Assembly (NCBI GenBank): GCA_902557995.1
Contig: CACECL010000009.1
Location: 1-36,121 of the forward strand
Origin: an uncultured Pelagibacteraceae bacterium
GTDB lineage: Bacteria > Pseudomonadota > Alphaproteobacteria > Pelagibacterales > Pelagibacteraceae
Direction: 5' to 3'
DNA: 36,121 bases
Positions 2,242-21,307 of this stretch are shown here, in pieces. The first letter of the stretch is position 1, and each line of letters starts with the position of its first letter. A program made the position numbers and the translations under genes. The notes below the pieces were generated by a model that was not told where the DNA came from, searched no databases, and saw only the letters and a program-made list of their open reading frames with translations.

Positions 2242-2253
2242 TAAAATTGAAAA

Positions 2254-2275
2254 GGGGAGCTGAAATTAGCTCCCC
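2254..2275 (-). terminator. Intrinsic terminator of the importer/demethylase operon
   Basis: The perfect 8-bp stem GGGGAGCT / AGCTCCCC with a 6-base loop lies 12 bases after the stop of the minus-strand demethylase gene. Read on the minus strand it is followed by TTTTCAATTTT, a short U-rich tail. It is the most GC-rich element in the neighbourhood and separates the 2287-6374 operon from the small membrane gene pair. Confidence 0.75.
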
Positions 2276-2286
2276 CTTAGTAAATT

Positions 2287-3645
2287 TTAGCCTTTTACAA
2301 CTTCTCTTGTATTTGCATTGAAAGACTCTTTGAATGGAATATCCACAACTACAGCATCCACAGGTGTTCCTGGAGTGTCCGAATATTTTTCAGGAAGATG
2401 AACTTTAAACTTAGTTCCAACTTTACCTTTTGGAAATCCATTAGGGTTTAAAGTTCCGTCAAACGGAACATATCCCATTGCTATATTAGTTTTCTTCTCC
2501 GGGTGCCACCATGGTGAAGTAATAAATCCAACTGGATCTCCACCGCTTTCTGGTGATACCAACCAAAAGTCAGGCGCATAATCGTCAATAGGCTTACCAC
2601 CCAACTCCATTCCAACTAATTGAAGTTTATAAGGTTTTTTTCCAGCTTTTATTTCTGCTCCCATTTTCTCCAAAGCAGCCTTACCAACATAATCAGCTTT
2701 TTTATTCCATTCACCTTTACCAGATAATGAAACTTGGTAACCTAAATTACATTGAAAAGGATTATGTTGTTGATCCATGTCTTGTCCCCAAGAAAGAATA
2801 CCTGCTTGTATTCTTCTATGGTGTGCAGGTGCAATCACCATTAAGTTATGTTTTTTTCCTGCATCTAATACTGCATTCCACATATCTTCAGCATATAAAG
2901 TTGCATTTCTTAAATATATCTCATAACCAGCTTCTCCTGAAAAACCAGATTGAGAAATTACACAACTTCTTCCACCAATTGTTGCTTCTGCTAATCCATA
3001 AAAAGGCATATTGTCAAAATCAACTTGGTCTCCACAAAGATCTTTCATTAAAGCTTTTGATTTAGGACCTTGAATTTGCACTGGACATGCATCAATTTCT
3101 TCAATTGTACAGTTAAATCTTCCATCCGCATTTACACCTTGTAAATACATTCCAATATCAGAGTCTGATAATGAAAACCAAAACTCATCTTCTGAAATTC
3201 TTAAAAGAATTGGATCATTTAAAACTCCGCCATAAGCGTTACACAATATTACATATCTTGCTCTCATTGGAGAAATTTTTGTTGCATCTCTAGTGATTAC
3301 ATAGTCCGTAAATTTTTCTGCATCTGGACCCTTTACTCTTATTTGTCTTTCAACAGCAACGTTCCACATTGTTACGTGGTTTACGATCGCATCGTATTCA
3401 ACCATAGCTCCACCATCTTCAGGTTTTACATAACCTCTTGGGTGATAAATACGATTGTATACAGTTGCTCTCCAACAACCTGCCTGCATTGATAAATGCC
3501 AATAAGGTGACTTTCTTACCCTCGTTGAAATTAATAATTCAACTTTAGTTGGCCCACTTTGTCTTAAATTGTATGGTACTTCTCTATCAGACTGATCAAC
3601 AGAAGTAACATGTTGTACTTTAGTATAGTCAAATTCTTTAGACAT
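2287..3645 (-). CDS. GcvT-family THF-dependent demethylase (LigM/DesA-like)
   Basis: This 452-residue protein has a GcvT/aminomethyltransferase fold. Parts such as NDPILLRISEDEFWFSLSDS (about residues 142-161) and PVQIQGPKS (about 188-196) resemble THF-dependent O-demethylases of the LigM/DesA type more than glycine-cleavage T protein. It is also longer than SAR11 DmdA (about 370 residues, from memory). Family members transfer a methyl group from a substrate to tetrahydrofolate, giving 5-methyl-THF. The start ATG has a strong AAGGAG site eight bases upstream and lies eight bases inside the MetF-like gene, so the pair is coupled. That fits a demethylase whose methyl-THF is oxidised by the neighbouring MetF. 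The betaine-type importer upstream suggests a quaternary amine or sulfonium substrate; this is inference, and DMSP, betaine or another compound cannot be told apart from sequence. Confidence 0.75.
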   Translation of the reverse strand: MSKEFDYTKVQHVTSVDQSDREVPYNLRQSGPTKVELLISTRVRKSPYWHLSMQAGCWRATVYNRIYHPRGYVKPEDGGAMVEYDAIVNHVTMWNVAVERQIRVKGPDAEKFTDYVITRDATKISPMRARYVILCNAYGGVLNDPILLRISEDEFWFSLSDSDIGMYLQGVNADGRFNCTIEEIDACPVQIQGPKSKALMKDLCGDQVDFDNMPFYGLAEATIGGRSCVISQSGFSGEAGYEIYLRNATLYAEDMWNAVLDAGKKHNLMVIAPAHHRRIQAGILSWGQDMDQQHNPFQCNLGYQVSLSGKGEWNKKADYVGKAALEKMGAEIKAGKKPYKLQLVGMELGGKPIDDYAPDFWLVSPESGGDPVGFITSPWWHPEKKTNIAMGYVPFDGTLNPNGFPKGKVGTKFKVHLPEKYSDTPGTPVDAVVVDIPFKESFNANTREVVKG

Positions 3646-4366
3646 AACTATTCTCCTTCAACCACTTGTTAGTTTCCTTCAAGCCGCCGAATGTATAAAT
3701 GTGGAAGTTATCAGTGTGCGATTTTACTTTCCCAATTAAATCATTAGGGTCTTTAGGTTTCAATAAATCTAATGCCTTACTAAAATTAGATTTAAGAAAG
3801 TTTAAGGAATTTTTTGCCCCAACAATATTAGCAAATTTAATTAAGCTAGATATTTTTAATGGCCCAGTAATTCCCACATGCACTGGTACGCTTTGCTTAG
3901 AAATAAAATCTATAATAGGCTGAGGATCAAGTAACCATTGCGTTACAATATAATCAGCGTAAGGCTTTTTATCTATCATAGCTTTTTCTAAATCTGAGTC
4001 GGATATATCAGGACTCCCCTCGGGATGTCCAGCAATTCCTATTTTCATTTTTTCAAAATAACCTGTCTCTAAAAGTTGAAATGAACTATCAAATTTACCT
4101 GCTGGCTCTCTTCCACCTCCAATAATTAAGGCTTGCTTTACCCCTCCATCTTTGCATCTAGAAACGTAATCCTTTAGTTCTTTTTCATCATACATTGATC
4201 TTGCAGGAAAATGAGGTACAGGGTTAAATCCTTTTTTTACAAGCTCCACTGCTTTATCAGCGGTCTCTCTGTAATCACCCCCAGGTAGCATTGTTATATA
4301 AATGTCAGACAATTCTGGCACTGTATCAACCTCGGTTTTAGGACCTATTTCCAATGAAAAATTCAT
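3638..4366 (-). CDS. Short methylenetetrahydrofolate reductase-like protein (MetF family)
   Basis: This 242-residue protein resembles the TIM-barrel flavoprotein MetF but is shorter than the usual 290-300 residues. Visible features are an N-terminal strand with FSLEIGPKTE, the segment FNPVPHFPAR (about residues 46-55) where MetF binds folate and flavin, IIGGGREPAG (about 81-90), and the AGHPEGSPD motif (about 111-119) typical of MetF proteins. MetF interconverts 5,10-methylene-THF and 5-methyl-THF. Beside a GcvT-type demethylase it most likely runs towards methylene-THF, as proposed for MetF genes linked to ligM. The shortened C-terminus makes a role in methionine synthesis less certain. No clear Shine-Dalgarno sequence precedes the start. 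Confidence 0.8.
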   Translation of the reverse strand: MNFSLEIGPKTEVDTVPELSDIYITMLPGGDYRETADKAVELVKKGFNPVPHFPARSMYDEKELKDYVSRCKDGGVKQALIIGGGREPAGKFDSSFQLLETGYFEKMKIGIAGHPEGSPDISDSDLEKAMIDKKPYADYIVTQWLLDPQPIIDFISKQSVPVHVGITGPLKISSLIKFANIVGAKNSLNFLKSNFSKALDLLKPKDPNDLIGKVKSHTDNFHIYTFGGLKETNKWLKENSYV

Positions 4367-4427
4367 TTTGTAATCTTTATTTATTTTGAAATATGAGTCT
4401 AGAAAATTCGATGCAGCAAAGCATCAA

Positions 4428-5312
4428 CTATTTTATCTGACCTCTATGCTTTTGGATCCTTCTTCCATATTCTTGGGTGACCCTATCAAAGACAATTGCA
4501 AGAGCAACTATTGCCAATCCATTCATCATTCCAAGAGCTAAATATTGGTTAGAAACAGCTCTTAATATTGGCACTCCAAGACCTTTTACGCCTATCATAG
4601 AAGCAATAACTACCATAGCTAAAGCCATCATTATGGTTTGGTTTACCCCAGCAAATACAGTTGGTAAAGCTAGCGGAATTTGAACAGATTTTAATTTTTG
4701 TGCTGTTGTTGCTCCAAAAGCTTCACTAGCCTCTAAAGTTTCTTTGTCTACTTCTCTAATACCCAAGTTGGTTAATCTAATTATTGGAGGAATCGCATAG
4801 ACACAAACAGCAATTAATCCTGGTACTTTTCCAATTCCTAACAACATTAAAATTGGGATCAAATAAACAAAACTAGGAATTGTTTGCATCATATCTAATA
4901 CGGGAAGTATTGCTTTTTCAGCTCTACTTGATCTTGCCATCACAATTCCTATCGGAATTCCAACAACAATACAAATGATTGTACAAACAGTTATAATTGC
5001 AACCGTAGCCATGCAATCTTCCCACATTCCAAAATAACCAATTAATAAAAAAGCAATTGCACTTCCTACCACTAATTTCCAACTTCTTGAGCCCAACCAG
5101 GCTAATCCACAAATTATTCCAATAATTATTATCCATGGTGTAGATAATAATAATTTTTCTAATGATACTAAAAAAAACAATAATGGATCAAAAAATGCTT
5201 CTATACTGTCACCATATTCTTTTGAAAAATTTCTAAAAGCTAAGTCTATACCTTTTCTTAGCTCCATTTGGGATCTTCTTCCCAGTTCTGGAAATTCAGT
5301 AAAAAATTCCAT
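4428..5312 (-). CDS. proW: Glycine betaine/proline-type ABC transporter permease (ProW/OpuAB family)
   Basis: This 294-residue inner-membrane permease has about six to seven transmembrane helices. The binding-protein-dependent transport domain covers about residues 100-280 and has the EAA-loop region ASEAFGATTAQKLKSVQIPL (about 193-212), where the ATPase would dock. The N-terminus resembles ProW, with a long soluble start and an early helix. It follows the binding-protein gene after a 51-base spacer that carries a strong hairpin, and no good Shine-Dalgarno sequence precedes its ATG. No gene for the cognate ATPase (ProV) lies in this operon or next to it. A small 5-bp stem-loop (4410-4425) sits just after the stop, before the MetF-like gene. 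Confidence 0.88.
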   Translation of the reverse strand: MEFFTEFPELGRRSQMELRKGIDLAFRNFSKEYGDSIEAFFDPLLFFLVSLEKLLLSTPWIIIIGIICGLAWLGSRSWKLVVGSAIAFLLIGYFGMWEDCMATVAIITVCTIICIVVGIPIGIVMARSSRAEKAILPVLDMMQTIPSFVYLIPILMLLGIGKVPGLIAVCVYAIPPIIRLTNLGIREVDKETLEASEAFGATTAQKLKSVQIPLALPTVFAGVNQTIMMALAMVVIASMIGVKGLGVPILRAVSNQYLALGMMNGLAIVALAIVFDRVTQEYGRRIQKHRGQIK

Positions 5313-5323
5313 AAATATTAATT

Positions 5324-5352
5324 TTACGAGCCTATATTAAATAGGCTCGTAA
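5324..5352 (-). promoter_or_regulatory. Intergenic mRNA hairpin between binding-protein and permease genes
   Basis: A perfect 12-bp inverted repeat with arms around GAGCCTAT / ATAGGCTC and a 5-base loop fills the spacer between the two transporter genes. On the minus strand the 3' arm is followed by AAAATTAAT rather than a U-run, so it is not a classic terminator. In ABC operons such hairpins often protect the upstream binding-protein mRNA from 3' exonucleases and so raise its level over the permease. That role is inferred here. Confidence 0.6.
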
Positions 5353-5363
5353 TTTAAAGTTAA

Positions 5364-6374
5364 TTATAAACTTTTTTTGATTTTTTTTGCAGCATCAGAA
5401 GATACCCACTTAGTCCAAATATCTTCATGTTTAATTAAAAACTCAACTGCAGCATCAGATCCTTTAGCTTGGTTGTCAGCCATATAAACCAACATTCCAT
5501 TCATGACTGTGCCTGGAAAAGTTCTACTTTCAACATATTTTAGAACATCTTTTCCACCAGTTTTAGCAAAGTTAGCACTTACAATTGAGTTAACCTCAGA
5601 TTTTGTCCAAGCTGTTGGTTTTGGATTTGCACAGTCTTGTTCTGCAAGAGTTATGCAATTGTCCCAATTATCTCTACCTGCAAAAGGAACACCAAAATCA
5701 ACTGGCTGTAAATTATATTTACCAACCATAGATGTAGGATTCCAATAATATCCAAACCAAGGCTCACCAGAGTCTGAAGCTTTAGCAATTGAACCGTCTA
5801 AACCTGCTGCTGAACCTGGATCAATAAGTTTCCAACCTTTTTTTTCCATTTCAAAAGCTCTGTACAAATTAGCATTAGCTAATTGGCATCCCCATCCTGC
5901 TGGACATCCCATGAAAGCACCTTTTGATGGGTCCTCTTTATCAGGAAACAAATCTGGACGTTCTAAAATTTGAACAGCTGTCATTCCTTTAAGTTCAGGA
6001 TGTTTTTCTAAAGCTGCTGGATTTAACCACCAACCTTCTCCAAGACCTGTAATTGGAGCTTTATTTGCAATAATTAGTCTTTTCTCGCTTACCGCTTTTT
6101 TTAAAGGAGTGTAAACTGCATTCGCCCATTGTTCAGGGTTCATGTCAGGCGTTCCTTTATCATTCATAGATGTAAATGTTGGCATAGTAGCACCAGGTAC
6201 TAATTCTACGTCACATCCATATCCTTCTTCGAGAATGATTTTATCAACGTTTGCCATTAACTCGGCAGATGCCCAGTTTTGTTCGGCTATAACTAATTTT
6301 CCACAAGCATTTGCAAAAGAAGTCATACCAAATGCTAAAAGCGCGGAAAATAGAATTGTTTTTAATTTTTTCAT
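5364..6374 (-). CDS. proX: Glycine betaine/proline-type ABC transporter substrate-binding protein (ProX/OpuAC family)
   Basis: A periplasmic binding protein of 336 residues, counted from the ATG at 6372-6374, which follows a GGAG site (CGGAGATAAAATG). An ATG 33 bases further upstream is in frame but lacks this site and would spoil the signal peptide. Residues 1-23 (MKKLKTILFSALLAFGMTSF then ANA) form a Sec signal peptide. The mature protein resembles the OpuAC domain, with EQNWASAE near its start and many Trp/Tyr residues (for example GEGWWLN and EPWFGYYWNP) of the kind that form the aromatic cage for quaternary ammonium groups. It is the first gene of the operon. The ligand is probably glycine betaine or a related methylated osmolyte; the exact substrate cannot be told from sequence. 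Confidence 0.87.
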   Translation of the reverse strand: MKKLKTILFSALLAFGMTSFANACGKLVIAEQNWASAELMANVDKIILEEGYGCDVELVPGATMPTFTSMNDKGTPDMNPEQWANAVYTPLKKAVSEKRLIIANKAPITGLGEGWWLNPAALEKHPELKGMTAVQILERPDLFPDKEDPSKGAFMGCPAGWGCQLANANLYRAFEMEKKGWKLIDPGSAAGLDGSIAKASDSGEPWFGYYWNPTSMVGKYNLQPVDFGVPFAGRDNWDNCITLAEQDCANPKPTAWTKSEVNSIVSANFAKTGGKDVLKYVESRTFPGTVMNGMLVYMADNQAKGSDAAVEFLIKHEDIWTKWVSSDAAKKIKKSL

Positions 6375-6651: not shown

Positions 6652-7830
6652 ATGAAAAAGTTATCTCAAATACTCGATTTAAAAAAATTAAAAGTAGTAA
6701 ATAAAAATATTAATAAAGCTCATGGCTTACCAAATGAGTGCTATACTGATTTAGATTATTTATCTATTGAGAAAAAAAAAATTTTTGAAAATAAATGGGT
6801 AGTAATTGGTGTTGGCAGTTCTATACCAAATATTGGAGATGCTAAACCATTTGATCTGCTAGGAACTCCATTAATTATATTGAGAGATAAAAATAATAAA
6901 ATAAAAGTTTTTCATAATGTTTGTAGTCATAGAGGATACAAAATTCTTAAAGAAAAATGTAAAATTAAGAATATAATAAGATGTCCTTATCACTCTTGGT
7001 CCTACGATATGAGTGGCAAGTTAATAGCTACACCTCATATTGGTGGAATGAATAAACATAATTGTAATAAATTTAATAAATCAAAAAGTGGACTTAAGGA
7101 AGTTAGATCTCAAGTTTGGTTAGATTTAATTTTTGTTAATTTAAATAATAATGAAATTGATTTTGAAAAATATATTAAACCATTAAATGATAGATGGAAA
7201 AAATTCTGGCCAATTAAAGATAGAGATTTAATTGTTTATTCAAAAGATTATGGTTATTTTAATTTAAATGCCAAATGTAATTGGAAATTTGCAATAGAAA
7301 ATTATTGCGAAAGTTATCATCTACCCTGGGTTCATCCTGGATTAAACTCTTACTCAAAAATTGATGATCATTATCATATTCAAGGATTACCCAATCGTTT
7401 TGCTGGACAAGGCACAATGGTTTATAATCCAAGGTTTAAAAGTAACTTAAAATTTCCAACATTCCCAAACTGGCCAAAAGATCAAGAGCATATTGCTGAA
7501 TATGTTGCTCTTTTCCCAAATGTAATGCTTGGAATTCATAAAGACCATTTTTACGCCTACTGGTTAGAACCAGTAAACAATGAATATACAAAAGAACATA
7601 TGGAAATTTTTTATGTTGGTAACGAAGCGGCAAATTCGAAAAAATTTAAATCACTTAGAAAACAAAACTTTGAACTTTGGAAAGGAGTTCAAAGTGAAGA
7701 TTTAAATATAATTGAGGGAATGCAAGATGGGAGAAAATCACCATCTTATAATGGGGGAAACTTTTCACCTGTGATGGATAATCCCACCCATCATTTCCAC
7801 AAATGGGTTGCAAACAATATAATGAAATGA
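6652..7830 (+). CDS. Rieske non-heme iron oxygenase, betaine-demethylase-like alpha subunit
   Basis: This 392-residue protein has an N-terminal Rieske [2Fe-2S] domain with ligands C91/H93 (in NVCSHRG) and C111/H114 (in CPYHSW). A C-terminal catalytic domain carries the mononuclear iron motif ENYCESYHLPWVHPG, with H223 and H228 as likely ligands and E220 as the likely electron bridge. An acidic segment near residue 350 probably supplies the third ligand. Such enzymes hydroxylate N-methyl groups of betaines (GbcA, stachydrine and carnitine oxygenases) or aromatic rings. The next gene is BHMT, so a betaine substrate is the best guess, but the motif does not fix it. No reductase partner is encoded nearby. 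The start is preceded by AAGGAGG held in a hairpin. It heads the plus-strand operon. Confidence 0.82.
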   Translation: MKKLSQILDLKKLKVVNKNINKAHGLPNECYTDLDYLSIEKKKIFENKWVVIGVGSSIPNIGDAKPFDLLGTPLIILRDKNNKIKVFHNVCSHRGYKILKEKCKIKNIIRCPYHSWSYDMSGKLIATPHIGGMNKHNCNKFNKSKSGLKEVRSQVWLDLIFVNLNNNEIDFEKYIKPLNDRWKKFWPIKDRDLIVYSKDYGYFNLNAKCNWKFAIENYCESYHLPWVHPGLNSYSKIDDHYHIQGLPNRFAGQGTMVYNPRFKSNLKFPTFPNWPKDQEHIAEYVALFPNVMLGIHKDHFYAYWLEPVNNEYTKEHMEIFYVGNEAANSKKFKSLRKQNFELWKGVQSEDLNIIEGMQDGRKSPSYNGGNFSPVMDNPTHHFHKWVANNIMK

Positions 7831-7841
7831 AAGGATAAATT

Positions 7842-8882
7842 ATGAAAAAAGATCTTATTACTAGATTAAATGAAGGACCTATTATGTGTGCAGAAGGATA
7901 TCTTTTTGCAATGGAAAGAAGAGGTTATCTTTCAGCAGGTCCATTTGTTCCAGAAGTAGTTTTAGAACATCCTGAGGTAGTAACTCAGTTACATAGAGAA
8001 TTTATTAGAGCTGGATCAGATGTTGTTCAAGCATTTACTTATTATGGTCATAGAGAAAAATTGAGAATTATTGGCAAAGAAGCTATGTTAGAGCCACTCC
8101 AAAAAAATGCTCTTAAGATAGCGAAAGATGCTGCGAATGAATTTAAAGATTTAGATTTAATGGTATGTGGAGATGTAGCTAATACAAACGTATTTGATCC
8201 TGGTGATGCTAACACTCATAAACAATGTCAACAAATGTATGAAGAACAGATAGCTTGGGCGAAAGAAGCTGGTGTTGATTTTGTAATTGCAGAAACAATA
8301 AATTGGACTGAAGAAATGAAGATAGCATTAAAAGCAATTAAAGATGCTGGACTTATTGCAGTTTGTAATTTTGCAATTCCTAGGGGGGACAAAACTAGAG
8401 AAGGTCATACCGCTGAAGATGCCTGCAAAATGATGGAAGATTTAGGTGCAGATGTAGTTGGTTTAAATTGTTATCGAGGACCTGAAATGACAATGAAACT
8501 ATTAAAAAAAGTTAGAGAAAAAGTTTCATGTCACGTTGCTGGACTTCCAGTACCATACAGAACAACTGAGGAAGAACCTGGTTTTCTAAATATAACTGAT
8601 CATGGTTGCAATTGTATTCCAGGTGGAAATGCATTCCCAGTAGCTTTAGATAATTTGTTTTGTAACAGATTTGAAATGGCAGAGTTTGCAAAAGATTGTG
8701 TTCAGAACAAAATAAATTTTATTGGTATATGTTGTGGAGCAGAAGCACATCACGTAAGAGAAATGTCAGTTGCAATTGGAAAAAAACCAATTTCAATGAA
8801 ATATATGCCTGACATGAGCAAACATTTTCATCACGGTACTGATAAATCTTTGAAAAAAGTAAACAAGGAAATTAAATACTAA
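7842..8882 (+). CDS. bhmT: Betaine-homocysteine S-methyltransferase
   Basis: This 346-residue protein belongs to the homocysteine S-methyltransferase barrel family. The three zinc-binding cysteines are present: C210 in VGLNC and the pair C297-C298 in GICCGAEAHH, spaced much as in mammalian BHMT. An N-terminal EGYLFAMERRGYLSAG segment corresponds to the homocysteine/betaine site of BHMT proteins. The enzyme moves one methyl group from glycine betaine to homocysteine, giving dimethylglycine and methionine; some homologues also accept sulfonium donors such as DMSP. An AAAGGA site precedes the ATG. Its stop overlaps the dimethylglycine dehydrogenase start by one base, which matches the order of the pathway. 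Confidence 0.88.
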   Translation: MKKDLITRLNEGPIMCAEGYLFAMERRGYLSAGPFVPEVVLEHPEVVTQLHREFIRAGSDVVQAFTYYGHREKLRIIGKEAMLEPLQKNALKIAKDAANEFKDLDLMVCGDVANTNVFDPGDANTHKQCQQMYEEQIAWAKEAGVDFVIAETINWTEEMKIALKAIKDAGLIAVCNFAIPRGDKTREGHTAEDACKMMEDLGADVVGLNCYRGPEMTMKLLKKVREKVSCHVAGLPVPYRTTEEEPGFLNITDHGCNCIPGGNAFPVALDNLFCNRFEMAEFAKDCVQNKINFIGICCGAEAHHVREMSVAIGKKPISMKYMPDMSKHFHHGTDKSLKKVNKEIKY

Positions 8883-11287
8883 TGGAAAAGCATGCGAAGG
8901 TAGTAATCATAGGAGGTGGTGTAGTAGGGTGCTCTATACTTTATCATCTATCTAAATTTGGATTAAAAGATTGTATTTTACTTGAGAGAAATGAATTAAC
9001 ATCAGGTTCTTCGTGGCATGCTGCAGGTAATGTTCATGTAATTTCATCTGATCCTAATATTTCTCGGATGATGGCTTATACGATAGGCTTGTATAAAGAG
9101 ATAGAAAAAGAATCTGGTCACTCAACTGGATTTAAACCTAGTGGAGGATTTTATTTAGCATCAAATGAAGTCTGGGCTGATTACTTAAAAAGAGAAAGAT
9201 CAAAAGCAAGGTATATGGGGCTAGACCAAGAATTTATTTCTCTTGAAGAAGTAAAAAAGAAACACCCATTAATTGATCCATCTAGATATTTGTTAGCTTT
9301 GTGGGATCCTATTGATGGTGAGGTTGACCCGTCAGGTGTTACTTATGCTTTTGCAAAAGCAGCCAAAGTTCATGGTGGTAAGTATTATACTCACACAGTA
9401 GTCAAAGATACTAAACAAAAAAAAGATGGGTCATGGGAAGTGTTTACCGACAAAGGAAACATCAATGCTGAAATAGTAATTAATGCAGGAGGACTTTGGG
9501 CAAGAGAAGTTGGACAATTAGCTGGATTAAATCTTCCTGTTCAACCAATGGAGCATCATTATTTAATCACTGAACCTATTCCAGAAATTGAGGCAATGGG
9601 TGACCAAAGATTGCCAATTGGAACAGATTTTGAGGGAAATATTTACTTTAGACAAGAAGGAAAGGGTATGTTGCTTGGAACTTATGAGCCAAAATCAACT
9701 CCTTGGAAAGTTGAAGGTACACCAATGAATTTTGGTCACGAGTTACTTGAGCCAAAGTTAGATAATATTCAGGATAGATTGGCTATTGGTTTTGAAAGAA
9801 TGCCAGCGCTAGAACGTGCAGGAATAAAAAATATAGTTAATGGACCTTTTACTTTTGGTCCAGATGGAAGTCCTCTGATTGGTCCAGTGCCAGGGATGAA
9901 AAATTATTGGGTTGCGGTTGGTGTTATGGCTGGATTTTGTCAAGGTGGTGGTGTTGGAAAATGTTTAGCAGAATGGATTATTGAAGGAGAACCTTCTATA
10001 GATGTTTGGGCAATGGATGTTGCTCGTTTTGGAGATTATGCTTCACCTCAGTATGGAACCATTAAATCTTCAGAAAATTATGAGCGAAGATTTATCATGA
10101 CTTTTCCAAATGAAACTTTACCAAAAGGAAGAAAGCAAAAAACTACTGCACTTTATGATCGATTTATAAATAAAGGTGCTGTTATGGGAGATAGTTTTGG
10201 TTTGGAAAACGTTTTGTGGTTTGCAAATAATAAAGAAGATGCTCATGAAGAGCCTACTATTAAAAGATCAAGATCACATGACTATGTTTCAAAAGAAGTT
10301 ATTAATGTGAGAGAAAATGTTGGTTTAATCGAAGTTGCTAACTTTTCAAAACATGAATTCAAAGGTCCTGATGCTAGAAAATTTTTAGATCATATAATGG
10401 CCGGAAGAATTCCAAAACCAGGGAGGATATCTTTATCCCCGATGTTGTCATATAGAGGAAAGTTATGTGGCGATTTAACTGTGGCTTGTTTAGATGAAAA
10501 TGAATTCATTGTATTTGGTTCTGGAGCTGCTCAAGAAATGCATAGACGTTGGTTTGAGAGTCATTTAGATAAATTTAATTTAAGTTATTCCAATAGATCT
10601 GATGAATATCACGGTTTGTCTATTGCAGGACCTAACTCGAGGAAAGTTTTAGAAAAAATTGTAAGAGACGATGTTTCAAATGAAAAATTTAAATTTAGAG
10701 ATTCTAGAAGAATGTTTGTTGGAGGAGTTCCAGCAATAATAAATAGAATTTCATTTACTGGTGAACTTGGATATGAAATTTATGTAGCACCTCACTATCA
10801 ATTAAAACTTTACGAAGAATTAATGGAAGCTGGAAAAGAATTTAATATAAAACCTTTTGGTGGAAGAGCATTAATGTCAATGAGGTTAGAGAAAAATTGG
10901 GGAGCTTGGACTTTAGATTATAGACCAGATTTTACAGCAAAAGAGACAGGCTTAGATGCTTTTATTAATTGGGATAAAGAGTTTATAGGTAAAGAAAGTG
11001 CACAAAAGGAAAATTCTTCAAATAAACTAATACCATTAATTGTTGAAACAAATGATATTGATGTAACAAATAATGAAGCCGTGATGAATGGCGATCGAAA
11101 TATTGGTTATGTAACTTCAGGTGGTTTTGCTCACTTTGTAAATAAAAGTGTAGCGTTTACTTTTATTGATCAAAATAACATTAATTCTGAAAATAAAATT
11201 CAAGTAGAGATAAATGGAGATTTATTTAATTGTTCAATAATTAAAGAACCACTTTATGATCCAAGTGGTCAAAAAATGAGAAGCTAA
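8882..11287 (+). CDS. Dimethylglycine/sarcosine dehydrogenase-type FAD-GcvT fusion protein (first copy)
   Basis: This 801-residue fusion begins with a FAD-binding oxidoreductase domain: dinucleotide motif GGGVVG at residues 11-16 and SGSSWHAAGN around H46, the His that carries covalent FAD in mammalian DMGDH. The C-terminal part, from about residue 390, is a GcvT-type folate domain (for example NVGLIEVANFSKHEFKGPDA and FTGELGYEIYV). Such enzymes oxidatively demethylate dimethylglycine or sarcosine, passing the one-carbon unit to THF and electrons to ETF. The gene lies directly after BHMT, so dimethylglycine is the likelier substrate, but sequence alone does not separate the two activities. 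Its stop overlaps the methyltransferase start by one base. A second copy lies at 18875. Confidence 0.85.
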   Translation: MEKHAKVVIIGGGVVGCSILYHLSKFGLKDCILLERNELTSGSSWHAAGNVHVISSDPNISRMMAYTIGLYKEIEKESGHSTGFKPSGGFYLASNEVWADYLKRERSKARYMGLDQEFISLEEVKKKHPLIDPSRYLLALWDPIDGEVDPSGVTYAFAKAAKVHGGKYYTHTVVKDTKQKKDGSWEVFTDKGNINAEIVINAGGLWAREVGQLAGLNLPVQPMEHHYLITEPIPEIEAMGDQRLPIGTDFEGNIYFRQEGKGMLLGTYEPKSTPWKVEGTPMNFGHELLEPKLDNIQDRLAIGFERMPALERAGIKNIVNGPFTFGPDGSPLIGPVPGMKNYWVAVGVMAGFCQGGGVGKCLAEWIIEGEPSIDVWAMDVARFGDYASPQYGTIKSSENYERRFIMTFPNETLPKGRKQKTTALYDRFINKGAVMGDSFGLENVLWFANNKEDAHEEPTIKRSRSHDYVSKEVINVRENVGLIEVANFSKHEFKGPDARKFLDHIMAGRIPKPGRISLSPMLSYRGKLCGDLTVACLDENEFIVFGSGAAQEMHRRWFESHLDKFNLSYSNRSDEYHGLSIAGPNSRKVLEKIVRDDVSNEKFKFRDSRRMFVGGVPAIINRISFTGELGYEIYVAPHYQLKLYEELMEAGKEFNIKPFGGRALMSMRLEKNWGAWTLDYRPDFTAKETGLDAFINWDKEFIGKESAQKENSSNKLIPLIVETNDIDVTNNEAVMNGDRNIGYVTSGGFAHFVNKSVAFTFIDQNNINSENKIQVEINGDLFNCSIIKEPLYDPSGQKMRS

Positions 11288-11913
11288 TGGCTCAAAAAGA
11301 CGTAGGAAACAAAATTCCAATTTATAAGCTTAAAACTACTGACGAAGTTATGAAGTACTACGATGAGTGGGGAGACAAAGATAAATACAATAAAGACATG
11401 GTTGATTGGAACTATACAGGGCCCAAAGAAACCGCTGAAACATTTAACAAATATGAAAAAAACAAAGATACTTTAATTTTTGATGCTGGATGTGGAACAG
11501 GTTTAGTGGGATTGGAGCTTAAAAAATATAGTTTCAAAAACTTTCATGGAGCCGATTTATCTCAAACTTTATTAGACACTGTACCAAAAGATCTTTATCA
11601 AAAATTAGTAAAGATTGATTTAAATAAACCAATAGAAGTTGAGGACAACTTTTATGGTGGAGTTATGTGTGTTGGAACATTTACTTTTGGGCATGTAAAA
11701 CCATACGCATTAGATGAATTTATAAGAATAACAAAACCAGGTGGATTGATTTGTTTTACTATAAATGAAGGAATTCATGAGGAGTATGGTTTTGATAAAA
11801 AAATTGATATACTCAATGATAGCAAGAAGTGGGAAGAAGTTGAATTTTTTAAATCTGACTATATTGCAAGCAAAGATGTTAATGCATGGTTAGGGTTGTA
11901 TAAAGTATTATGA
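11287..11913 (+). CDS. Class I SAM-dependent methyltransferase
   Basis: This 208-residue Rossmann-fold methyltransferase has motif I FDAGCGTG (residues 65-72), an acidic residue after the second strand (HGADLS) for the SAM ribose, and the post-motif ITKPGGLICFTIN. It resembles METTL27-like and other small-molecule methyltransferases. The substrate is unknown. It sits between a dimethylglycine dehydrogenase-type gene and the DddP gene, overlapping both (1 and 4 bases), so a role in methylated-osmolyte metabolism or in disposing of methyl groups is plausible but unproven. Confidence 0.8.
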   Translation: MAQKDVGNKIPIYKLKTTDEVMKYYDEWGDKDKYNKDMVDWNYTGPKETAETFNKYEKNKDTLIFDAGCGTGLVGLELKKYSFKNFHGADLSQTLLDTVPKDLYQKLVKIDLNKPIEVEDNFYGGVMCVGTFTFGHVKPYALDEFIRITKPGGLICFTINEGIHEEYGFDKKIDILNDSKKWEEVEFFKSDYIASKDVNAWLGLYKVL

Positions 11914-13145
11914 GATTTAGTAGAAAAATTGCTCCTGAAATAAAACCAAGACAAAATTTTATTACAAAAAAAAGATTAAGAGAAGATGAGATAAATTTTG
12001 ATAAGTTAAGATCATATCGTTTAGATAGGGTCAGAAAAGAATTAGTAAAAAACAATTTAGAAGCTTGTATTCTCTTTGATCCAGTGAATGTTCGTTATGC
12101 TTTAGACACAATCAACATGAGTGTCTACAATATGCATAATTTAACAAGATATTGTTTTGTTCCAGTCAATGGACCTACAATTCTTTATGAGTATTTTAAT
12201 TGTGAAATATTATCAAAACATTTAAATCTAATTGACGAAATAAGACCTGCAATCACATGGGATTATTTTAGTAATGGAGATCAAGCAGACAATCAATTAT
12301 TAAAATGGATAAATGAAGTTAAAGATTTATCAAAAAATTATTTTAAAACAAAAAAAATTGCAATTGATGTTTTAAATGGTCCCGCGGTTACAGCTTTAAA
12401 TAAAGAAGGTATTGAAGTTGTAGATGCAAAATTAATTTTAGAACAAGCAAGAGTAATAAAATCACCTGATGAATTGACTTGTATGAAAGCAGCAATAGAA
12501 GTTGCAGAAAAAGGTGTATCAAAAATGAGATCAGATCTCAAACCAGGAATGACAGAAGATGAATTGTGGTCAATTCTACATAAAACAAATATTGAAAATG
12601 GCGGTGAATGGATTGAATGTAGAATTTTATCTTCTGGTGAAAGAACAAATCCATGGATGCAAGAGAGTAGTAATAAAGTTATTCAACAGGGAGAAATTGT
12701 TGCTTTTGATACAGATATGGTTGGTCCCTATGGATACTGTGCTGACATATCAAGGGCCTTTGTAGTTGGACATAAATTTAATGATGAGCAAAAAAAAATA
12801 TATTCAATGGCCAGAAATCAAATTGATCATAATTTTAGATTAATAAAACCAGGAATGAGTTTTAAAGAATTTATAAAAAAATCTTGGGTTTTGCCTGATG
12901 AATATTATGGAAATAGATATTCATGTATGGTTCATGGAATTGGTTTATGTGATGAGTGGCCTCAAATAAGATATCCAACTGATGGTGGAGAAGAAGGTGG
13001 AACTTTTGAGAAGAATATGACAATCACACTTGAGAGTTATATTGGTAAAGTTGGTGGTAAAGAAGGTGTAAAACTTGAACAACAGTATCTTGTAGGTGAA
13101 AATGGACTTGAATTAATGTCCCATCATCCGTTAGAAGATATTTAA
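11910..13145 (+). CDS. dddP: DMSP lyase DddP (M24 metallopeptidase fold)
   Basis: This 411-residue protein has the M24 creatinase/aminopeptidase fold. Its metal-site residues match the spacing I recall for structurally studied roseobacter DddP (D295, D297, D307, H371, D377, E406, E421). Here FDTDMVGPYGYCADIS gives D267, D269 and D279, VHGIGLCD gives H342 and the catalytic-type D348, and LESYIG and VKLEQQ give E375 and E390. The intervals 2, 10, 6 and 15 are identical. Ordinary Xaa-Pro peptidases lack the D269 and D348 equivalents. DddP cleaves dimethylsulfoniopropionate to DMS and acrylate in the cytoplasm. The start overlaps the upstream stop by four bases (ATGA). The protein is somewhat shorter at the N-terminus than roseobacter DddP. 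A DddP-like peptidase without lyase activity remains possible. Confidence 0.78.
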   Translation: MRFSRKIAPEIKPRQNFITKKRLREDEINFDKLRSYRLDRVRKELVKNNLEACILFDPVNVRYALDTINMSVYNMHNLTRYCFVPVNGPTILYEYFNCEILSKHLNLIDEIRPAITWDYFSNGDQADNQLLKWINEVKDLSKNYFKTKKIAIDVLNGPAVTALNKEGIEVVDAKLILEQARVIKSPDELTCMKAAIEVAEKGVSKMRSDLKPGMTEDELWSILHKTNIENGGEWIECRILSSGERTNPWMQESSNKVIQQGEIVAFDTDMVGPYGYCADISRAFVVGHKFNDEQKKIYSMARNQIDHNFRLIKPGMSFKEFIKKSWVLPDEYYGNRYSCMVHGIGLCDEWPQIRYPTDGGEEGGTFEKNMTITLESYIGKVGGKEGVKLEQQYLVGENGLELMSHHPLEDI

Positions 13146-18874: not shown

Positions 18875-21307
18875 ATGAAAACAAAAACTAAAGTTGTAGT
18901 AGTTGGTGGAGGAGTTGTAGGGGTAAGTGCCCTTTATCATTTAGCAAAAAAAGGCTGGTCTGATGTTGTTTTAGTTGAAAGAAAAGAGTTAACTTCGGGA
19001 TCTACTTGGCACGCAGCAGGTTTGTTGCCTTTATTTAATATGAGTTACTCAGTTGGACAACTTCATAAATATGCGGTTAATCTTTACAAAACATTAGAGG
19101 AAGAAACTGGAAAAAATGTTGGCTTTAGTGTTGTTTCAAATATTCGTCTAGCAAGTACAAAAGATAGAATGGATGAATACCATCAATACGCAGGCGTCGC
19201 TCGAACTATCGGAGTAGATGTTAAATTTTTGAAACCAGAACAAGTAAAAGAAATTTGGCCATTATGTCATACAGATGATTTAGTTGGCGCAATACAACAC
19301 CCTGAAGATGGATATATTCAACCAGCAGATTTAACACAAGCATTAGCAACAGGTGCAAGAAATAGAGGAGCAGAAATTTATAGAAACACAACTGTCCTAT
19401 CAATGAGGCAAACTAAAGATGGATGGATTGTGGAAACAGATAAGGGATCAATAGAGTGCGAACATGTTATTTCTTGTTCTGGAAATTTTGCGAGACAAAC
19501 AGGTGAAATGGTAGGATTAGATATCCCAGTAATACCTGTTGAACATCAATACATTGTTACAGAACCACATCCTGCAATTCAAAAAAGAAAAAAAGATGGA
19601 TTACCAGAAATGGGAGTCTTAAGAGATAGTGATAGCAGATGGTATATGAGGGAAGAAGCTGGAGGATTGATTTTAGGTCCTTATGAAGATGGTGCGCCAG
19701 CTTGTTATGTAGAGGGGCCATCAAAAAATTCAGAATATGAATTATTTCAAGAAGACTTAGACAGATTAGCTCCACATATAGAAGGAGCAATTCATAGAGT
19801 ACCTGCGTTTGGAGAAGTTGGAGTAAAGAAAGTTTATAATGGAGCAATCTGTTATACTCCTGATGGAAATCCAATTGTTGGACCAGCTTGGGGACTTAAA
19901 AATTTTTGGATAAATGAAGGACATAGTTTTGGAATAACAGCAGCAGGTGGTGCAGGCTGGCAGTTAGCAGAGTGGATCGTTGATGGCGAACCTACAATTG
20001 ATATGTTAGGAGTTGAACCAAGACGTTACGGGAACTACGCAACTAAATCTTATTTGAAAGCAAAAAATGAAGAAGCATACAGCCATGTATTTATTGTTCA
20101 CTATCCAGATGAAGAAAGACCAGCGGCAAGACCATTAAGAACAGCTCCTTGTTATGAACGAATGAAAAATTTAGGTGCTGTGTTTGGTCAGAAGTTTGGA
20201 TGGGAAAGACCTAATTTTTTTGCAACAGACGGAATGGAACAAAAAGATGATTGGTCATTTAGAAGATCGAAATGGTTTGATGCTATTAAAAAAGAATGTC
20301 AAAATGTTAAAGAAAACGTAGGTCTTTTAGATATGACTGCGTTTGCAAAATGCAGAATTAGGGGACCTAAAGCAGAGGAATTTTTAGATTATTTAGTTGC
20401 AAACAAACTTCCTAAGAAAATTGGAAGAATAAATTTATGTCATGCTTTGAACACTAAAGGTGGAGTGCATTCAGAATTTACAATAATGAAAGAAGCGGAA
20501 AATAGTTATTATCTAGTTTCTGCTGGAGCAAATTTAAGATTAGACCATGATTGGATACAAAAATGGATGCCAGATGATGGGTCTGTAATATTTGAAGATC
20601 TAACAAATAGTACAGGAGTTCTGGTAGTAGCTGGTCCAAAAGCAAGACAATTAATGCAAAAGGTTTCAACAGACGATTTTTCTAATGAAAATTTCAAATG
20701 GTTGACTGCTAAAAATGTAAATGTTGGATATGCTCCAGTAAATGCAATGAGAGTAAACTTTGTGGGTGAGCTTGGTTGGGAACTACATCATCCAATTGAA
20801 TATCAAAACCATATTTTTGATAAATTAATGGAAGCGGGAAAAGATTTAGGAATTAAACCTTTTGGGATTAGAGCAATGAATAGTTTGAGGGTAGAAAAAT
20901 CTTATAAACTAGTTGGTACAGAATTATCAATCGAATACTCACCATATGAGTCTGGTCTTGATAGATTTGTTCATCCTAATAAAGGAAACTTTATTGGGTT
21001 AGAAGCACTTAACAAATGGAGAGAAAAAGGTTTTGATAATAAATTGGTCACTTTAGAGGTTCATAATACTAAAGATGCAGATGTGCTTGGAAATAATCCA
21101 ATTTTTAAAGACGGAAAAGTTGTTGGAAGAGCAACCGGAGGTGAATTTGGTTTTAGATTAGATAAATCAATAGCTCTTGCAATGGTTAAACCAGATTGTT
21201 CGAATGTGGGCGACAAATTACAAGTTGATATATTAGGTGAAATGTACGACGCTACTGTCCTAGATGAGAGTCCTTACGATTCAGAAAATAATTTATTGAG
21301 AGCTTAA
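18875..21307 (+). CDS. Dimethylglycine/sarcosine dehydrogenase-type FAD-GcvT fusion protein (second copy)
   Basis: This 810-residue fusion has the same architecture as the protein at 8882: GGGVVG at residues 11-16 and [10 protein letters not shown] with the FAD-linking H46 at the N-terminus, and a folate-binding GcvT-like domain from about residue 400 ([19 protein letters not shown] and [13 protein letters not shown]). The two differ at many positions, so this is an old paralogue rather than a recent duplicate. It is directly coupled to EtfB-EtfA, its expected electron acceptor. One of the two copies probably acts on dimethylglycine and the other on sarcosine, but which does which is not visible. 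TAGGAAT lies about 8 bases before the start. Confidence 0.86.

Follow-up and report, generated by a model that had tools for sequence, protein, structure and literature searches.

A GcvT-fold protein paired with a MetF subfamily in SAR11 bacteria is a candidate tetrahydrofolate-dependent demethylase of glycine betaine

The minus strand at positions 2287–6374 of a 36,121-nucleotide stretch of DNA (the window; contig CACECL010000009.1) from an uncultured Pelagibacteraceae bacterium of the SAR11 order carries genes for a binding protein, a permease, a short MetF and a 452-residue GcvT-fold protein, here called AMT. We propose that AMT is probably a tetrahydrofolate (THF)-dependent demethylase, most likely of glycine betaine, that works with a methyl-THF-oxidizing MetF. 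We infer this reaction, its direction and its substrate from the clade to which AMT belongs, its conserved residues, its pairing with MetF and its gene contexts. The window genome (assembly GCA_902557995.1; 987 kb, 43 contigs, 77% complete) has its nearest relatives, by sequence search, among Pelagibacteraceae single-cell genomes. A sequence-only reading of the region had described a betaine-type binding protein, a permease, a short MetF and the 452-residue protein, with an eight-base overlap of the last two genes (bases 3638–3645), and the open reading frames bear out each of these. Its central idea, a THF-dependent demethylase coupled to MetF and acting on a methylated osmolyte, appears probable from the clade and the MetF pairing.

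AMT forms a clade of its own beside DmdA

AMT contains a GCV_T domain (135 bits, Pfam). It scored 226.9 bits against the DmdA NCBIfam model NF009133 (equivalog cut-off, 410), 145.5 and 127.5 bits against GcvT models (300 and 235.85) and 36.2 and 42.5 bits against LigM/DesA models (580 and 800), in each case below the cut-off; the window genome also encodes a DmdA (578 bits) and its own GcvT (361 and 342 bits) that exceed theirs. A tree of 54 rows was built, in which fused proteins were trimmed to their GCV_T part and a LigM-like sequence with an internal stop (L148) was excluded. In this tree, 20 AMT rows formed one clade with support of 100/100, comprising ten from the SAR11 order (that of the window and nine more), one from another alphaproteobacterium, four from non-alpha proteobacteria and five from haloarchaea. 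The AMT clade grouped with DmdA and DmdA-like proteins (99/98), and DmdA formed a separate clade (100/99). On the opposite side lay GcvT, DMGDH, sarcosine oxidase (Sox) and trimethylamine N-oxide (TMAO) demethylase, with LigM on a long branch; because the tree was rooted at the midpoint and long branches were flagged, LigM and GcvT are placed with less confidence than the AMT and DmdA clades. The phylogeny suggested by the sequence-only reading therefore puts AMT outside both the DmdA and the GcvT clades. The description 'GcvT/LigM-like' holds for the GcvT fold and fails for LigM, which lies on a distant branch and gives 36 bits against 227 for DmdA.

At the residue level, N143, W156, D161 and Y244 of AMT are the same in all 20 AMT and all 12 DmdA rows of the alignment, and these sites read D, I, A and S in the sole GcvT row. 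The equivalents of DmdA N107, D108, W120, D125, E204 and Y206 are kept in 20/20 AMT rows at each position. DmdA position 197 is F in every AMT row, and W in five and Y in seven of the 12 DmdA rows, so that W is not universal in DmdA either; by our own mapping it corresponds to W171 in the numbering of PMC7487153, where W171 of DmdA is described as key for dimethylsulfoniopropionate (DMSP). F235 is present in all 20 AMT rows, in four of nine DMGDH, Sox and TMAO demethylase rows and in no DmdA; H276 occurs in 19/20 AMT rows and in no other row, and Q298 in 20/20 and in 1 of 34 others. An N-terminal stretch, VDQSDR...NLRQSG, is also typical of AMT. Together, the retained DmdA residues and the AMT-specific ones suggest that AMT transfers methyl groups as DmdA does but has another kind of substrate pocket.

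Three assignments to known families were rejected. A LigM-like enzyme is ruled out by family scores and tree, and orthology to DmdA or to GcvT by the respective cut-offs, the tree, the residues and the presence of a separate DmdA and a separate GcvT in the genome. A related possibility, that AMT is a GcvT-type accessory making methylene-THF from the methylene units of DMGDH and sarcosine enzymes, would suit the GCV_T fold and the DMGDH-type neighbours described below. We regard it as very improbable, because those enzymes have a GCV_T domain of their own, the linked MetF is of a subfamily near PDB 7xg9, and AMT misses the GcvT cut-offs (146 of 300 and 128 of 236 bits) and has DmdA-type residues.

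By sequence, the top PDB match of AMT is a DmdA structure, 3tfh. A structure search with an AlphaFold model, made from 29 input rows of which 26 were 92–95% identical to the first, also returned 3tfh first (TM-scores 0.44/0.52, rmsd 11.8). As the model is weak it backs the fold only, and the structural modelling advised by the sequence-only reading is too poor for the pocket.

The linked MetF belongs to a distinct subfamily

Taken alone, the window MetF scored 22.2 bits against the Pfam family of methylenetetrahydrofolate reductase (MTHFR), just under the cut-off of 24, and it clearly matched a solved MTHFR, 7xg9 (E 4e-32, 114.7 bits; next best, 18). A profile of ten linked MetF proteins gave 263 bits with 7xg9, 64 with the next MTHFR and about 45 with the PDB entries that we take to be E. 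coli MetF; 7xg9 itself is presumably the MTHFR of Sphingobium SYK-6 (S6MTHFR). On these scores the linked MetF is a distinct MTHFR subfamily with 7xg9 as its nearest solved relative, and it is predicted to oxidize methyl-THF to methylene-THF.

SAR11 loci were taken as the best 80, by score, of at least 583 matching stretches, all in Pelagibacteraceae or Pelagibacter records, so that distant SAR11 is under-sampled in the locus counts; in every count reported here, related genomes are non-independent events. MetF adjoins AMT in all 77 SAR11 loci with at least 800 bp upstream, and the same subfamily is linked to AMT in other proteobacteria and in four of five haloarchaeal loci. A single MetF-type gene was found at 1e-8 in the window genome, which is incomplete, and in G399, which is 99% complete. 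In another genome (G083), a subfamily member adjoins a methyl-THF:corrinoid methyltransferase, a pairing like mtgD–metF2 of Ruegeria pomeroyi. The subfamily is thus common to several demethylation systems, and its presence alone names no substrate.

At the site equivalent to Asp120 of E. coli MetF, presumably the flavin-site Asp, Pelagibacteraceae MetF rows have G or S (GGG/GGS) and several other members have D (often GGD). Beside AMT in G869, an 854-residue frame (L202, 6604–9165, minus strand) combines a MetF-like part, found by tblastn, with a formate–THF ligase, found with Pfam; the fusion is a natural link of putative methyl-THF oxidation to formate release. The same MetF subfamily also adjoins DmdA-like proteins that fall outside the AMT clade, at L105 and L100; one of these proteins has a DMGDH-type gene as well, and they are further candidate THF demethylases.

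Gene contexts of AMT outside SAR11

Outside SAR11, AMT has a glycine-betaine catabolism context in one genus that does not belong to the alphaproteobacteria (f55), in G869, in G895 and in haloarchaea. The G-numbered genomes outside the class of the window are probably gammaproteobacteria. In f55, MetF is linked to AMT in G138 and G174, and G070 has a MetF remnant near AMT and an intact copy elsewhere. All three genomes have a GbdR that exceeds its cut-off, at a distance of 2.2 to 2.8 kb from AMT (500.8 bits, cut-off 480, at L130). A DMGDH-type protein lies near AMT at L128 and L130, and L128, the one locus scanned for both, also holds formate–THF ligase and a serine dehydratase (SdaA). In G895, AMT, MetF, DMGDH, SoxB and a SoxA frame that includes a SoxG domain follow on one strand with gaps of about 10 to 290 bp (starts uncurated), and this DMGDH is 69% identical to DMGDH2 of the window (Table 1). 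G869 combines a GbdR-like gene (390 bits, under the cut-off), AMT, the MetF–formate–THF-ligase fusion and a DMGDH (69%). Haloarchaeal loci, read in five of the 16 listed plasmid records of haloarchaea, variously hold FolD, formate–THF ligase, GlyA, threonine ammonia-lyase, BCCT, formate dehydrogenase and DMGDH-type proteins. Known DMSP genes were absent from the scanned stretches around AMT outside SAR11.

The distribution of GbdR was compared with those of AMT and GbcA in 145 genomes of the order of G138. GbdR exceeded its cut-off in 20 of them. Seventeen of the 20 lack an AMT-clade gene and match GbcA at an E value of at most 1e-100 (16 exceed the GbcA cut-off and one has a split gene); one of them (G086) has the 44% relative from outside the clade. 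The other three, G138, G174 and G070, have AMT and no GbcA match at 1e-100. Ten further genomes hold GbdR relatives under the cut-off, accompanied by GbcA in one (G919), by AMT in one (G869) and by neither in eight, and G895 has AMT and no GbdR match. Across all 145 genomes the AMT clade (5 genomes) and GbcA (19) have an overlap of 0, with 0.7 expected, which says nothing alone; it is conditioning on GbdR that makes the pattern telling. In SAR11, orthologues of DMGDH2 (at least 75% identity) were found in 11/11 AMT-positive and 2/11 AMT-negative genomes, hand-picked from the listed rows at 95% completeness or more.

These contexts also bear on whether AMT acts on some other N-methyl compound, such as carnitine, proline betaine, choline, homarine or the product of a Rieske oxygenase. 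A Rieske gene is divergent from MetF in many SAR11 loci, whether or not they have an importer, a GbcA-like Rieske lies near AMT in Haloarcula, and regulators of the GbdR family respond to more than one ligand; a literature search on homarine gave nothing relevant to this possibility, and homarine stays a possible substrate. We nevertheless judge such a substrate improbable, as the AMT–MetF–DMGDH–SoxB–SoxA/G gene row spells a glycine-betaine route and AMT and GbcA are complementary.

The importer is a swappable cassette

Of 72 SAR11 loci whose upstream sequence extends to 2,800 bp or more, 35 had the binding protein and permease and 37 lacked them; the permease of the window scored 270 bits with the choline permease model, below its cut-off of 363. 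Loci without the importer often have MetF facing the Rieske gene directly, and three loci of another SAR11 family (L131–L133) have MetF–AMT and no importer matches. Where at least 6,000 bp upstream was available, BHMT occurred in 29/31 loci with the importer and in 1/30 without. The identity of the binding protein to that of the window tracks Rieske identity (Spearman 0.84, n=33) and does not track MetF (−0.03) or AMT (0.04); four importers of the 61% type accompany Rieske proteins of 79–89%, so that the importer–Rieske link is not strict. From the counts and correlations, the ties of the importer to the Rieske/BHMT side are at least as strong as those to AMT. The importer is an optional, swappable cassette, common to BHMT/Rieske genes. 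The cassette statistics of the SAR11 loci rule out a dedicated importer–demethylase operon, and with it the suggestion of the sequence-only reading that the importer serves AMT separately from the BHMT route.

The sole PDB match of the binding protein at E 0.001 was 7yle, which we take to be RnDmpX from matching residues at the published positions. Seven DmpX ligand residues (W35, T64, W84, E113, W152, Y200 and W202) are kept in 41/41 binding proteins, and the site of the eighth, A153, is G in 18, N in 21 and A in 2. As seven of eight are kept, DMSP is a likely ligand, and betaine is possible too. Ala153 is reported to contact the ligand carboxylate. Its site, residue 162 of the window protein, is G, N or A by importer cassette type, hinting at different ligands.

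A second sulfonium demethylase, acting on DMSP, methylmercaptopropionate (MMPA) or a relative such as dimethylsulfonioacetate and fed by a DmpX-like importer, would fit these ligand residues, the place of AMT on the DmdA side of the tree, the presence across the promoter of an M24 protein resembling DddP (354 of 600 bits) and the binding of DMSP at 100 nM by DmpX of Pelagibacter HTCC7211 (PMC10030565). This alternative is unlikely, given that AMT misses the DmdA cut-off (227 of 410 bits) and has F in place of DmdA W/Y197 in all 20 rows, that AMT outside SAR11 is accompanied by GbdR, DMGDH and Sox genes and, in the scanned stretches, by no known DMSP gene, that the importer is missing from 37/72 loci and that the window genome already has a DmdA (578 bits).

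Distribution of AMT

Strong AMT matches were present in 203 of 247 genomes of the order of the window (210 reported at 1e-60, minus seven with a best match of just 1e-61 to 1e-68) and in 5 of 397 genomes of the rest of the phylum, where the copies were 65–70% identical. Sixteen of the 20 plasmid matches listed were haloarchaeal (51–57% identity), the next being from Phaeobacter (34%), and four scans of viral contigs gave 1, 0, 1 and 0 loci. In this pattern AMT resembles a core gene of SAR11 that has also undergone scattered transfers. At L133 (9254–11793, plus strand), a locus of another SAR11 family, a second gene of the AMT type comes directly after AMT; it groups with DmdA and scores 372 of 410 bits.

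Proposed role of AMT

We suggest that AMT demethylates a quaternary (or sulfonium) osmolyte, glycine betaine being the most likely one, and passes the methyl group to THF, which would yield dimethylglycine and 5-methyl-THF. The linked MetF would then convert 5-methyl-THF to methylene-THF, which could pass to FolD, formate–THF ligase and formate dehydrogenase for energy, and dimethylglycine would be taken to glycine by DMGDH-type and sarcosine enzymes; the importer would be an optional upstream cassette, common to BHMT/Rieske genes. The best reading is that demethylation by AMT would be independent of cobalamin and oxygen. We give an even chance to a more specific version, in which AMT is a glycine betaine:THF methyltransferase that needs no cobalamin, oxygen or homocysteine, has its own one-way MetF, is present in most sampled SAR11, also occurs, probably through transfer, in haloarchaea and in scattered proteobacteria and replaces GbcA near GbdR in one genus.

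Several points weigh against the glycine-betaine assignment. SAR11 has BHMT, which could do the first betaine step, and the binding protein of the window has a DMSP-type cage. In the tree, the DmdA and DmdA-like side as a group has support of just 87/83, and the AlphaFold models are poor (pLDDT 57.5 for AMT and 44.9 for MetF). The three GbdR genomes with AMT are of one genus and amount to one event. A betaine context is lacking beside AMT at three loci: G016 has no MetF, DMGDH or betaine genes near it, G383 has only MetF and an M24 peptidase, and Haloarcula GH36 (L013) has no betaine genes and lacks MetF and the other genes named above for haloarchaeal loci. Last, the G869 cluster includes an MttB-family methyltransferase, and Haloarcula marismortui has its GbcA-like Rieske (132 of 670 bits) near AMT.

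SAR11 bacteria are the most abundant heterotrophs of the ocean, and glycine betaine is a major osmolyte there. The first betaine step is usually assigned to BHMT, which makes methionine, so this step should be limited by homocysteine. If our proposal is true, AMT and the MetF that goes with it would account for the energy yield, betaine-fuelled C1 oxidation would gain a marker gene and the DmdA branch would gain a new substrate.

Layout of the locus

The features of the locus are given in Table 1. The terminator with which the sequence-only reading closed the gene row has a counterpart in a hairpin with a T-rich tail at 2278–2251; a scan of the region gave four terminator-like sites against 2.9 expected (s.d. 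2.0) in shuffles, so the call rests on the position of the hairpin. No ATPase gene lies within the importer cluster at this locus, and the highest-scoring choline-type ATPase in the genome (380 bits; cut-off, 484) is encoded on a different contig. The M24 protein (11910–13145, plus strand), a DddP relative (354 bits; cut-off, 600), adjoins the BHMT/DMGDH genes. An Rfam scan of the window at gathering scores gave 0 matches.

Table 1 Features of the AMT locus in the window
Feature	Position	Strand	Basis
AMT, 452-aa GcvT-fold protein, predicted THF-dependent demethylase	2287..3645	-	ORF (open reading frame), family scores, tree, alignment
MetF-like protein, 242 aa, PDB 7xg9 subfamily, predicted methyl-THF-oxidizing MTHFR	3638..4366	-	ORF, profile and PDB searches
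ABC permease, ProW/choline type, optional importer cassette	4428..5312	-	ORF, family score, locus counts
OpuAC-type binding protein, ATG at 6374	5364..6374	-	OpuAC domain, 149 bits
Terminator-like hairpin, 11 bp, T-rich tail, after AMT	2251..2278	-	Hairpin scan
Terminator-like hairpin, binding protein/permease gap	5324..5352	-	Hairpin scan
Weak terminator-like hairpin, permease/MetF gap	4408..4427	-	Hairpin scan
Divergent Rieske oxygenase, GbcA-like (128 bits; GbcA cut-off, 670), co-varies with importer	6652..7830	+	Family score, locus counts
BHMT-like homocysteine methyltransferase, co-occurs with importer	7842..8882	+	Family score, Pfam, locus counts
DMGDH1, DMGDH-type FAD oxidase with GCV_T domain	8882..11287	+	Family score, Pfam
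DMGDH2, DMGDH-type protein	18875..21307	+	Homologues of about 69% identity in the G869 and G895 AMT–MetF clusters

Comparison with known systems

DmdA is the closest characterized family to AMT, with 3tfh on top both by sequence and by the fold of the weak model. AMT differs in its separate clade, in F at 197, in an N-terminal extension, in HH at 275–276 and in a C-terminal extension. The sequence-only reading called the AMT–MetF route possibly undescribed, but Sun et al. 2011 (PMC3160333) had noted the pair in SAR11 Ia genomes, with metF SAR11_1264 beside the AMT SAR11_1265, which is close to DmdA. Matched by description only, this pair of Candidatus Pelagibacter ubique is the one studied here. 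In that paper, the substrate of SAR11_1265 is left open, with speculation on the second methyl of DMSP, another AMT (SAR11_1303) is postulated and SAR11 cells oxidize betaine methyl groups to CO2. In a proteome study (PMC5069961), SAR11_1264 and SAR11_1265 change alike and unlike bhmT. Searches of a collection of openly licensed papers gave none on a GcvT-family glycine-betaine demethylase, and as far as these searches show, the glycine-betaine assignment proposed for AMT is new. PMC7487153 has both a 'non-DmdA' sister clade and a calibration on Halobacteriales, so that the AMT family may be included there.

The binding protein of the window shares seven of eight ligand residues with the DMSP importer DmpXWV (PMC10030565); its eighth residue varies (G/N/A) and no ATPase gene lies beside the window importer. 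LigM and S6MTHFR of Sphingobium lignivorans SYK-6 follow the same logic as that proposed here, a THF demethylase with an MTHFR running towards methylene-THF, and the SYK-6 MTHFR is reported to oxidize the methyl-THF from LigM (PMC12585457, PMC13001107); the demethylase itself is different, on a distant branch and at 36 bits. In Ruegeria pomeroyi, MtgBCD also passes a glycine-betaine methyl group to THF and then to MetF2, the protein most differentially synthesized on N-osmolytes (PMC12478193). That study describes the mechanisms of the first betaine step as having remained elusive and reports that MtgC was not found in Pelagibacteraceae. MtgBCD needs cobalamin and several proteins, unlike the demethylation proposed for AMT.

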